A stretch of 64,000 nucleotides of DNA from an uncultured Cellvibrionales bacterium (GTDB taxonomy: Bacteria > Pseudomonadota > Gammaproteobacteria > Pseudomonadales > Dasaniaceae). Positions 59,772-63,455 of the stretch are shown piece by piece (the first letter of the stretch is position 1; each line of letters opens with the position of its first letter). The stretch covers positions 1-64,000 of the forward strand of contig CAJVZD010000008.1 in the NCBI GenBank assembly GCA_913019905.1. The letters run 5' to 3'. The position numbers were made by a program, and so were the translations under genes. Under the pieces are notes generated by a model. The model made no database searches. It was not told the DNA's origin and saw nothing but the letters and a program-made list of their open reading frames with translations.

Positions 59772-60478
59772 ACTGCGAAAGAGCCTTTAAGTAGTCTAAG
59801 GATATGAAACTATCGAAAAGTCGCTATTCTACTGGAAGTTGGCCCTAGACTTAAGCCTAAAACGGGTAAATCGTTAAGAAGTGGAAATTTAGCCGTTTTT
59901 TTTTAATATTCCCGCGACTTACCATGTAATCACGTGCGAAAGATCGAGTTTACCTAGCCTTTTCTATTGTTCACCGTCTGTGTTAATGGCAAAAAGGCGG
60001 TCGACCCTCCTCGCCTGCGGTTTCCCATACTGCGGTTTTGCTCTATTTGCTTACTAACTGAGGAATTCGTGAGCTCCGTCAGTCGCCGCCCGAATAAACA
60101 ATGAAGATAGATCTGAAGCGCTTTACTTGGCTGGACCACATATTTGATGTCATCCGAACAACCACGAAACTATCCTGGAGCTCAGAATAAAATTGGTAAA
60201 TTTCAGCCGATTCCAAAACGCTGCCAGCGTGAATAGCTAATCCGGCCTCTTCTGGCAATATCTTCTGACAGTTTGTGCTCAGCAGCTCTACCCGTCTGGC
60301 TCCTCAATTGCGGTAAGATTCGAGAACAGTGGTTAAAATCATTGCTGACAACACGCGATCTTATATAGGCCAGTCCAACTCACTGGATTTATGTCCCGGA
60401 CGACGATAATATAAAATTCTATTATGGCCTATACTTCATCAATAATGAAAAAAACGCCTGCAATTTGACGAGTCCATT
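59772..60478. other. 707-base gap between purL and the repeat protein
   Basis: It holds the divergent promoters of purL and the repeat-protein gene, which I could not place. I see no tRNA, no transposon end and no long ORF. A 61-residue ORF (59954-60139, minus) and a 29-codon ORF (60101-60190, plus, MKIDLKRFTWLDHIFDV) have no supporting ribosome-binding site. A T9 run lies at 59896-59904. The mltF gene that often sits opposite purL is absent. Confidence 0.4.
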
Positions 60479-61261
60479 ATGACAGAAATGTTGTTCGACA
60501 TATTTATTACCGGAAAGCTCGTAAACGGCGTGAGTCCGGACGAAGCTCAGCAAAATTTCGCTAATTTATTCAAAACGACCTCCGACAAAGTGTCTCGGTA
60601 TTTTTCAGGGCAACCGCAACTTTTCAAACGAGCCATCAATAAAACGGAAGCCTTGCGATATAAGGAGGCTTTGCACAAGGCGGGCGTTCTCGTTTCTTTC
60701 ATGGCCCATAAACCTGCCGCTGCCGCGTCAGATCCTGCAAGCGCCGCTGCCTCTCCAGAACAGCCCTCCTCGACCGTAACCACTCGCGCTGCCGCTTCTG
60801 CAGGTGAAGAGCACGCTCAAAGCTCACAAGAAGATGATAGAGCAGCTGCTTTAACTCTTGCACCGGTTGGCAGTGACGTACTAAATAAAGACGAGCGACA
60901 TGAATTTGTTGCTGCGGATGTGGACACTAGTAATATAAAAATGGTTTCTGCTTTTTTAGATGTCGAACCTGTAGCAAAGGATACCCCTCCCGCACCCGAT
61001 ACAGGCCATTTATCGATAGCCGCAGCTGGAGTAGACTTGTTAGATGATAAGCCCGACGCGCCAGCTCCCTTAGATCTAGATTTAGACAGCCTCTCTCTGG
61101 CGCCTGCGGGTTCATTGCTTGATGAAATTCATGATGATCTACCCCCTGTTAATCCAGACATAAGCGCCTTAAGTATAGCTCCGCCTGGAGCAGACATTCT
61201 CGAAGGAGAAACAAAAGCGGCGCCACCGCCCGCTCCTGATACGTCGCATATAAGCCTGTAG
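60479..61261 (+). CDS. Unknown protein: conserved N-terminal module plus tandem ~26-residue repeats
   Basis: Residues 1-75 (LFDIFITGKLVNGVSPDEA through YKEALHKAGVLVSF) form a compact module I recall at the N-terminus of several gammaproteobacterial proteins, often ahead of membrane domains; its role is unknown. An Ala/Ser-rich linker (76-125) follows. The rest is six repeats spaced 25-28 residues: ALTLAPVGSDVL, SNIKMVSAFLDV, GHLSIAAAGVDLLDD, DSLSLAPAGSLLDE, SALSIAPPGADILEG and a final cut-off SHISL at the C-terminus. Proline- and aspartate-rich spacers separate them. No signal peptide or membrane segment is seen. The repeat may be a binding motif displayed on a flexible chain. Confidence 0.7.
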   Translation: MTEMLFDIFITGKLVNGVSPDEAQQNFANLFKTTSDKVSRYFSGQPQLFKRAINKTEALRYKEALHKAGVLVSFMAHKPAAAASDPASAAASPEQPSSTVTTRAAASAGEEHAQSSQEDDRAAALTLAPVGSDVLNKDERHEFVAADVDTSNIKMVSAFLDVEPVAKDTPPAPDTGHLSIAAAGVDLLDDKPDAPAPLDLDLDSLSLAPAGSLLDEIHDDLPPVNPDISALSIAPPGADILEGETKAAPPPAPDTSHISL

Positions 61262-61377: not shown

Positions 61378-62748
61378 TCAAACCGGGATTGTAATCTCAA
61401 ACCGTAGTCCGGGATGATTGTCTGAAAGAGTGATATCACCACCGTGCAGATTAATTGCTGCAGACACCAAGCTTAATCCCAATCCATTGCCAGGCTGTAC
61501 ACCGCGACTTTCTTCTACGCGAAAAAAGCGGCGAAAAACTTTGGTCTTCTCTTCTTCAGCAATCCCCAATCCAGAGTCACACATCGTCACTTTTACAGCG
61601 TTTTGTGTAACAAGTAAGTCAACCGAAATCTCACCGCCCTCGGGGGTATATTTAATAGCGTTATCAATGACGTTTGCAAAAGCCTGAAAGATTAAATGCC
61701 GGTCACCTTGAATTTCAGCCCCGTCGGCTAAGTTCTGTGTCATCGTTATTGATTTCGCAAATGCCAGCGGCTCATAAAACTCAACTATATCCAAAAGAAT
61801 GACCTTTAGGTCGATCTTGATAAAGCCGGCCCGCTGCTTTCCAGATTCAATATGGGAAATTCTTAACAGGGCGTTAAAGGTTGAAAGAAGATCATCTGCT
61901 TCGCCAATAAGGCTCTGAACAGTTTCTTCGGTGTTGCCATTTGGATGGTCTTGCAATTGAGTCAGATGGTTGCGCAACCGAGTCAGTGGCGTGCGTAAAT
62001 CGTGGGCGATATTGTCCGAAACCTGTCTTATTCCCTGCATTAACATTTGGATCCGATCCAACATAAGGTTCAAATTGGAAGTCAGTTCTCGATAGTCACC
62101 TTGTTGATTCACCCAGTCGATTCTTTGCGATAAATCACCTGACATTATCCGCTTTACATTTTTGTTGATACTATCGATTCTGTTAACGCTCAATCCGGCG
62201 ACAATCACTCCGCCAATGGTTCCCAGTACTATAGTAACGATCAGAGTACGAAGTAAAACGCCCTGTACTATATTGGTAATATAAATGACATCAGAATAGT
62301 GGCGCGCTACCAACAAGTAGTGTCCGTTTGCTATCCGTCTAGACTGCGCAAAAAAAGGAATCTCGTTACTGGCCAAATCCCCGCCCAAAACATCTAAATA
62401 GTAACTTATGTAATCGTCTTGATAATCTCTGTATTTTGGCCATGAGTCCAAACTGCCAGCAATTTTTTGGTGGTTTCCATCCACTACCAAATAGTGAAAT
62501 GCGTTAAATTCCGCAACCCGCACTTTCCTTTCAAGGAGGTGGTTTACGCCGTCTACACCATCGCGTTCATAGATAGTCTGAAGTTCGTCAATTTGACGAC
62601 TTATCGACGGACCTAACTCCTGAAATTGTTCATAGGAGTACGAGAGATATAATACAGCTAAAACAATCAGACTGGAGAAGCTTAAGCCAGCAACGTAAAT
62701 CGACATAAAGCGAAACGTATAACTGGCAAGGACTTTATTAAGGATCAT
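61378..62748 (-). CDS. HAMP-domain sensor histidine kinase
   Basis: The 456-residue kinase has two membrane segments (about residues 13-34 and 165-187) enclosing a periplasmic sensor region of about 130 residues, then HAMP (about residues 187-240) and the kinase core. The phosphoacceptor histidine is in SDNIAHDLRTPLTRLRNHL (about residue 250); the ATPase boxes are NVIDNAIKYTPEGG (N), DSGLGI (G1) and GNGLGLSLV (G2). It pairs with the response regulator 23 bases upstream. The signal it senses cannot be inferred; the resemblance is to the broad OmpR-partner kinase class. Confidence 0.93.
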   Translation of the reverse strand: MILNKVLASYTFRFMSIYVAGLSFSSLIVLAVLYLSYSYEQFQELGPSISRQIDELQTIYERDGVDGVNHLLERKVRVAEFNAFHYLVVDGNHQKIAGSLDSWPKYRDYQDDYISYYLDVLGGDLASNEIPFFAQSRRIANGHYLLVARHYSDVIYITNIVQGVLLRTLIVTIVLGTIGGVIVAGLSVNRIDSINKNVKRIMSGDLSQRIDWVNQQGDYRELTSNLNLMLDRIQMLMQGIRQVSDNIAHDLRTPLTRLRNHLTQLQDHPNGNTEETVQSLIGEADDLLSTFNALLRISHIESGKQRAGFIKIDLKVILLDIVEFYEPLAFAKSITMTQNLADGAEIQGDRHLIFQAFANVIDNAIKYTPEGGEISVDLLVTQNAVKVTMCDSGLGIAEEEKTKVFRRFFRVEESRGVQPGNGLGLSLVSAAINLHGGDITLSDNHPGLRFEITIPV

Positions 62749-62771
62749 TTACAACGCCTGCAGGCAAATTA

Positions 62772-63455
62772 TTATTCTGTTTCAGGATCATGAAGCATAT
62801 AGCCAGCGCCGCGAACGGTCGATAATAATTGCTTTTCGAAGTCTTTATCTATTTTCTGGCGAAGCCTACTAATGTGGACGTCGATGACATTCGTTTGCGG
62901 GTCAAAATGGTATTCCCAAACGTTCTCAAGCAACATCGTACGAGTTACCACCTGGCCCGCGTGTTTCATTAGATATTCCAGCAGTTTATACTCTCGGGGC
63001 TGGAGGTTGAACGACGTGCCGGAGCGGGAAACCTTATGGGCAAGTAAGTCCATCTCCAAGTCGGCGATCTTTAGTTTTGTCTGCGCGCTTGTGGAATCCT
63101 GCCGACGTAAAAGAGCTTCGATTCGCGCTAGCAGCTCAACGAAAGCAAAAGGTTTGACTAAATAATCATCTCCCCCTGCCTTGAGTCCATTGACGCGATC
63201 ATCGACTTCCCCTAGTGCACTTAATATCAATGCTGGCGTTCTATTTTCTATGGATCGCAGGTTTTCGATAATGGTCAAACCATCAATAAATGGCAACATA
63301 CGATCGACAATAATCACGTTATAGACTTCATTTGTTGCAAGAGACAAACCTTGTTTACCGTCTACTGCATGCTCAACTTCATAGCCATTCTGGACCAGGC
63401 CTTTAACAATATAATCCGCGACACTGCTGTCATCTTCGATAAGTAGTATACGCAT
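62772..63455 (-). CDS. OmpR/PhoB family response regulator
   Basis: The 227-residue protein has a receiver domain (acidic IEDDSS, phosphorylation site D51 in IIVDRMLPFIDGL, conserved K in LVKPFAFVELLARI) and a winged-helix output domain (about residues 130-223, LQPREYKLLEYLMKHAGQVVTRTMLLENVWEYHFDPQTNVIDVHISRLR in outline). It is upstream of, and probably co-transcribed with, the histidine kinase. Both receiver and output domains are intact. Targets are unknown; no transport or resistance genes sit next to the pair that would hint at its regulon. Confidence 0.94.
   Translation of the reverse strand: MRILLIEDDSSVADYIVKGLVQNGYEVEHAVDGKQGLSLATNEVYNVIIVDRMLPFIDGLTIIENLRSIENRTPALILSALGEVDDRVNGLKAGGDDYLVKPFAFVELLARIEALLRRQDSTSAQTKLKIADLEMDLLAHKVSRSGTSFNLQPREYKLLEYLMKHAGQVVTRTMLLENVWEYHFDPQTNVIDVHISRLRQKIDKDFEKQLLSTVRGAGYMLHDPETE

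Follow-up and report, generated by a model that had tools for sequence, protein, structure and literature searches.

A conserved bacterial repeat protein with an L7/L12 C-terminal-domain-like head and a tail of regularly spaced short motifs: a candidate flexible adaptor

Introduction

What could be the role of a protein that strings the same short motif along an acidic chain and then stops in the middle of a copy? Such a protein is encoded in the window studied here, a stretch of 64,000 nucleotides from an uncultured Cellvibrionales bacterium. A first-pass annotation, made from the letters alone, had described it as a repeat protein for which its author knew of no described role. In a literature search, which did not reach most subscription papers, we likewise found no paper describing the family, and searches with the family models of Pfam, NCBIfam and PHROG returned nothing significant for the protein. 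No signal peptide is evident in the 260 residues by eye. The analysis below indicates that the protein is real and conserved in bacteria; its function we infer. Since it combines an L12-like front end with a floppy tail of about six spaced motif copies, its probable role is that of a flexible adaptor, gripping a partner at several points.

Results

Repeat tail of the window protein

The tail contains six repeat registers, 25–27 residues apart, of which four hold full copies, one holds a divergent copy and the last, at the C-terminus, holds half a copy (Table 1). The core motif, [LI][ST][LIVM]A[AP][APV]G, begins at residues 125, 178, 205 and 231, and the half motif (of the DTSxLSL type) at 148, 173, 200, 226 and 253, with spacings of 25, 27, 26 and 27. 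The divergent copy, DTSNIKMVSAF (DTSNIKMVSAFL), begins at residue 149 and is a specialised variant. Four core hits compare with a maximum of one in 20,000 shuffles of the tail; this pattern was derived from the protein's own sequence, and a pattern-free self-similarity score of the tail also exceeded all 300 shuffles. The regular spacing of about 26 residues noticed at first reading is therefore genuine, as shuffled tails never match it. The description of the chain as acidic and proline-rich holds as well: the tail has a net charge of −19 and an Ala/Pro/Asp-rich composition in which Pro and Ala abound, as would suit tethered peptide ligands. In having several conserved short motifs at regular spacing, it resembles tandem linear-motif scaffolds.

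In the full-length model the predicted secondary structure of the tail amounts to one three-residue turn. The pLDDT is ~67–82 across the repeats and ~50 in the linker, and the moderate values over the repeats could mean that these fold instead of being disordered. Comparison of the repeat with solved structures gave no meaningful match.

Table 1. Positions in the window of the repeat gene and of the parts of its product.
Feature	Residues	Positions	Strand	Basis
Whole gene, 260 aa: head, linker and repeat tail		60479..61261	+	ORF list, relatives
Head, L7/L12 C-terminal-domain-like fold	1–77	60479..60709	+	predicted models, profiles
Linker, Ala/Ser-rich, variable, pLDDT ~50	78–120	60710..60838	+	model, ortholog alignment
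Repeat copy 1, LTLAPVGSDVLNKDERH	125–141	60851..60901	+	motif scan, ortholog alignment
Repeat copy 2, DTSNIKMVSAFLD, specialised variant	149–161	60923..60961	+	motif scan, ortholog alignment
Repeat copy 3, PDTGHLSIAAAGVDLL	173–188	60995..61042	+	motif scan, two-repeat profile, ortholog alignment
Repeat copy 4, LDLDSLSLAPAGSLLD	200–215	61076..61123	+	motif scan, two-repeat profile, ortholog alignment
Repeat copy 5, PDISALSIAPPGADILE	226–242	61154..61204	+	motif scan, two-repeat profile, ortholog alignment
C-terminal half repeat PDTSHISL, conserved end of the family	253–260	61235..61258	+	motif scan, orthologs
Peptide form of the repeat motif, PDTSHLSLAPAGADLL				

Conservation of the repeats

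Among 58 genomes, counting that of the window, a protein search found matches in 41, part of them to the head alone, and a tighter alignment as query named the relatives as Oceanicoccus, Dasania, Litorivivens and Spongiibacteraceae MAGs; a single-sequence scan of genome contigs gave no match. These names make an Oceanicoccus-like gammaproteobacterium the most likely source of the window. The translated relatives keep the same order of head, variable linker, repeats and C-terminal half repeat. In eight close orthologs, ~50% identical, all six copies hold their invariant residues and the linker differs in sequence and length, which is the pattern expected of binding motifs. These orthologs also conserve the divergent second copy, each copy having its own identity.

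The consensus of the motif reads P-x-P-D-T-S-x-L-S-[LIV]-A-P-x-G-x-D-L-L, with a terminal half motif PDTSHLSL. Across 79 collected proteins, the window protein among them, the strict core motif occurs 122 times in 61 proteins, against a shuffled mean of 0.5. An iterated PSSM places sites in 77/79 (a count that is partly circular) at a median spacing of 26 residues (IQR 25–27), and the number of PSSM sites per protein, from one to five, differs between lineages. Relatives that lacked the pattern, or had only random low-complexity sequence in its place, would have spoken against the first-pass annotation; the relatives retain the repeats.

The claim that the last repeat is cut off needs qualification. 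The protein does literally end in mid-repeat, but 66 of the 79 proteins end within 16 residues of a half repeat (shuffled mean 0.9), so that what looks like a cut-off copy is the natural C-terminus of the family, conserved among its members. A truncated or frameshifted gene was considered and ruled out, since orthologs share the same ending.

Fold and homology of the head

AlphaFold2 predicts a β-α-α-β-α-β fold for the head from an alignment of 24 heads (pLDDT 83), and the head reaches a pLDDT of ~95 inside the full-length model (46 sequences). Foldseek searches of the PDB with both models have L7/L12 C-terminal domains and ClpS as their best matches, with a TM-score to the L7/L12 domain of ~0.6–0.7 and E-values of 3e-3 to 2e-2, modest by themselves. 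PBP3, also returned as a fold match, was rejected as a partial-domain resemblance (target TM ~0.12). At the profile level, a profile of 124 heads found L7/L12 in the PDB at 2e-6 (hmmsearch), and hhalign of the heads against L7/L12 C-terminal domains of relatives gave 96.1% and E = 2.9e-9 in a single comparison. PF00542 is matched at E < 0.01 by 25 of the 124 heads; the head of the window protein falls short of a Pfam match when taken alone. With both fold and profile-level homology placing the head in the L7/L12 C-terminal-domain superfamily, we conclude that residues 1–77 are a divergent homologue of this domain.

The protein is nevertheless not a bL12 stalk protein, because the features that would make it one are missing. 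The head starts right at the beginning of the ORF, with neither the N-terminal dimerisation domain nor the hinge of L12 before it, and the factor-binding residues of bL12 (K65, I69, K70, R73, G79, L80 and K84) align, by column frequencies in the 124 heads, to variable or different residues. The fold is an already known one; the use proposed for it here would be new.

Distribution of the head

At E ≤ 1e-6 the head is found in 149 of the 245 genomes sampled from the order (~60%); a sample of 299 genomes from the whole phylum gave matches in 33. In five of these 33 (G537, G634, G641, G753 and G768) the match is short and low-scoring and is probably L7/L12 itself. The N-terminal module does recur in proteins that otherwise differ, as the first-pass annotation had suspected: it occurs in DUF898, DUF2628, DUF805 and TM2/pilin membrane proteins, in an AIM24 protein, a Castor/Pollux-type channel and M48 peptidases, and in Ser/Thr kinases with Peripla_BP_6. 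Most head proteins without repeats are inner-membrane proteins.

The window's own genome encodes two more head proteins outside the window. One (L075:2072-4705, on G000:C2) is a receptor-like kinase in which a Ser/Thr kinase domain is followed by the L12-like domain, here internal, a probable membrane segment and a substrate-binding-protein domain, Peripla_BP_6. L167 has a similar architecture, and by eye L179 and L180 also resemble kinases. Since in L075 and L167 the head is flanked by the kinase domain on one side and the membrane segment on the other, it should be cytosolic there. The other (L192:1725-2219, at ~137.3 kb of G000:C8) is a second short head protein of 165 aa, whose tail is basic and Arg-rich with no acidic repeats; L190 has a related tail. 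Elsewhere, L078:2378-4330 encodes four tandem head domains, then a linker in which QGKANFLSDADN-type motifs recur, a membrane segment and, by eye, a pilin-like end.

Coupling of the repeats to the head

A profile built from two repeats matched in 24 of 38 genomes, every match lying inside a head-bearing gene; the only previously unseen gene that it retrieved, in G028, also carries the head. No repeats were found outside head proteins in the 38 genomes, and no plasmid copies were found. The reverse dependence, a motif accompanying the head in all architectures, was ruled out: linkers of membrane-type head proteins carry the motif in 0/55 cases by the strict pattern and in 2/55 at p < 0.05 by PSSM, and some DUF898 members have only look-alikes such as LSLEP. 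In several genomes the repeat protein is the only head protein at E ≤ 1e-6, and a membrane head protein is therefore not an obligatory partner.

Gene neighbourhood

In the order-level group a conserved block adjoins the gene, made up of an RDD protein, lptG, lptF, pepA and holC, with a valS-like gene in several genomes. Between the repeat gene and this block there is often a two-component pair, encoded on the opposite strand; in the window it separates the repeat gene from the RDD gene. This minus-strand pair (61378-63455), a sensor histidine kinase and an OmpR-type response regulator, is convergent with the repeat gene, and its presence at this position varies between relatives. Three relatives lack the pair there, and in these the RDD gene follows directly after the repeat gene, as in an operon, with gaps of 73, 49 and −7 bp. 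Distant lineages have a different context and do not keep the neighbourhood; one such locus, beside yicG- and ychJ-like genes, looks Pseudomonas-like by its gene order.

The RDD membrane protein is a weak hint of a partner. As the RDD gene belongs to a conserved block, its closeness to the repeat gene may be plain synteny; the hint agrees with the fact that the head is often fused to small multi-pass membrane proteins.

On the other side, ~700 bp with no evident gene (59772-60478) lie between the divergent purL and the repeat gene. In the relatives L082, L084 and L087 the neighbour of purL is a conserved, mltF-like gene.

Discussion

We propose that the protein is a cytosolic adaptor, in which an L12-like head is joined to an acidic, disordered tail that presents its linear motifs in multivalent form, and we put the probability of this reading at about 0.5. 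Disorder of the tail in the cell, the cytosolic location, binding and its multivalency are what we infer from the features above. In such an adaptor the head would be reused as a protein-interaction module and the tail would act as an acidic disordered tether, bearing about six linear-motif copies and closing with half a motif. The copies could dock repeatedly on a putative partner, giving avidity or clustering, and the head would hold a second putative partner; the inner membrane, home to most other head proteins, is the likeliest place for this.

Where, then, is the partner of the motifs? They might bind the protein's own L12-like head, either in cis, as autoinhibition, or in trans, forming head-to-tail assemblies or condensates. 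Such self-association needs no other partner and so fits the genomes with a single head protein, and the restriction of the repeats to head proteins in the 38 genomes points the same way, as does the greater uniformity of repeat-linked heads compared with membrane-linked ones (F31 97%, K60 80%, Y61 83%, A68 86%), several of the uniform positions falling on the third helix. However, in a tree of the heads the architecture labels are clustered (13 changes versus 40 when shuffled), and the uniformity may merely mirror an orthologous group set against diverse paralogues; since the tree is poorly resolved, it is only a lead. We regard self-association as unlikely, though the most probable of the rival readings.

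The D-T-S-x-L-S elements could alternatively be multi-site substrates of Ser/Thr kinases, recognised by head-containing kinases such as the one encoded in the same genome and its counterparts described above, and Ser/Thr is indeed kept in most copies. Yet it is G, D, A and the hydrophobic residues, not S/T alone, that are the most conserved in the motif, several lineages replace S/T (e.g. PDFGLAP, IDNLDMAE) and many repeat-carrying genomes show no second head protein, which together make this reading improbable. A tail acting only as a passive spacer of low complexity, or left over from repeat expansion without a selected function, would agree with the composition and with a copy number that varies between lineages, but is already disfavoured, and in our view slightly less probable again, given the invariant residues in each of the individually distinct copies across orthologs only ~50% identical, and the conservation of both the variant second copy and the C-terminal half copy. 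The least probable of all is a translation-associated factor competing with or mimicking the ribosomal stalk, which has the homology of the head in its favour but conflicts with the altered factor-binding positions, the absent L12 N-terminal or hinge domain and the mostly membrane-bound nature of the other head proteins without repeats.

Returning to the adaptor, its L12-like head belongs to a module that is blank in Pfam and NCBIfam and ties DUF898, DUF805, DUF2628 and TM2 proteins to a kinase, an ion channel and a peptidase, in about 60% of the order's sampled genomes and more rarely across the wider class. Knowing what this module is provides the repeat protein with a role that can be tested. 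A bolder and rather doubtful extension is a widespread system, in which the L12-type domain would be a peptide reader on inner-membrane proteins and kinases, the motif LSxAPxGxDLL would be what is read, and the repeat protein would be its dedicated multivalent ligand and hub. If the head does read the motif, the two would form a new bacterial domain–peptide recognition pair.

How does the protein compare with known systems? With the C-terminal domain of bL12 (PF00542) it shares the predicted fold and sequence homology over ~60–70 residues. However, the domain is C-terminal in bL12 and N-terminal here, with a repeat tail added, and the window gene does not lie in a ribosomal operon. ClpS, the N-degron adaptor of ClpAP, belongs to the same fold group and was the second family in the fold search; compared by fold only, it has no sequence-level match to the window protein, clpA was not among the neighbouring genes typed, and no repeat tail is known in ClpS. 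The DUF898, DUF805, DUF2628, TM2/pilin, M48, Castor/Pollux and kinase–Peripla_BP_6 proteins have the head in common with the window protein, but theirs is attached to membrane-anchored catalytic or transport parts through linkers without LSxAPxGxDLL repeats. Disordered proteins with tandem short linear motifs, as a general class, likewise space conserved motifs regularly along an acidic, Pro-rich chain, the window protein differing from them in that neither its sequence in Pfam, NCBIfam and PHROG nor its repeat among solved structures has a counterpart.
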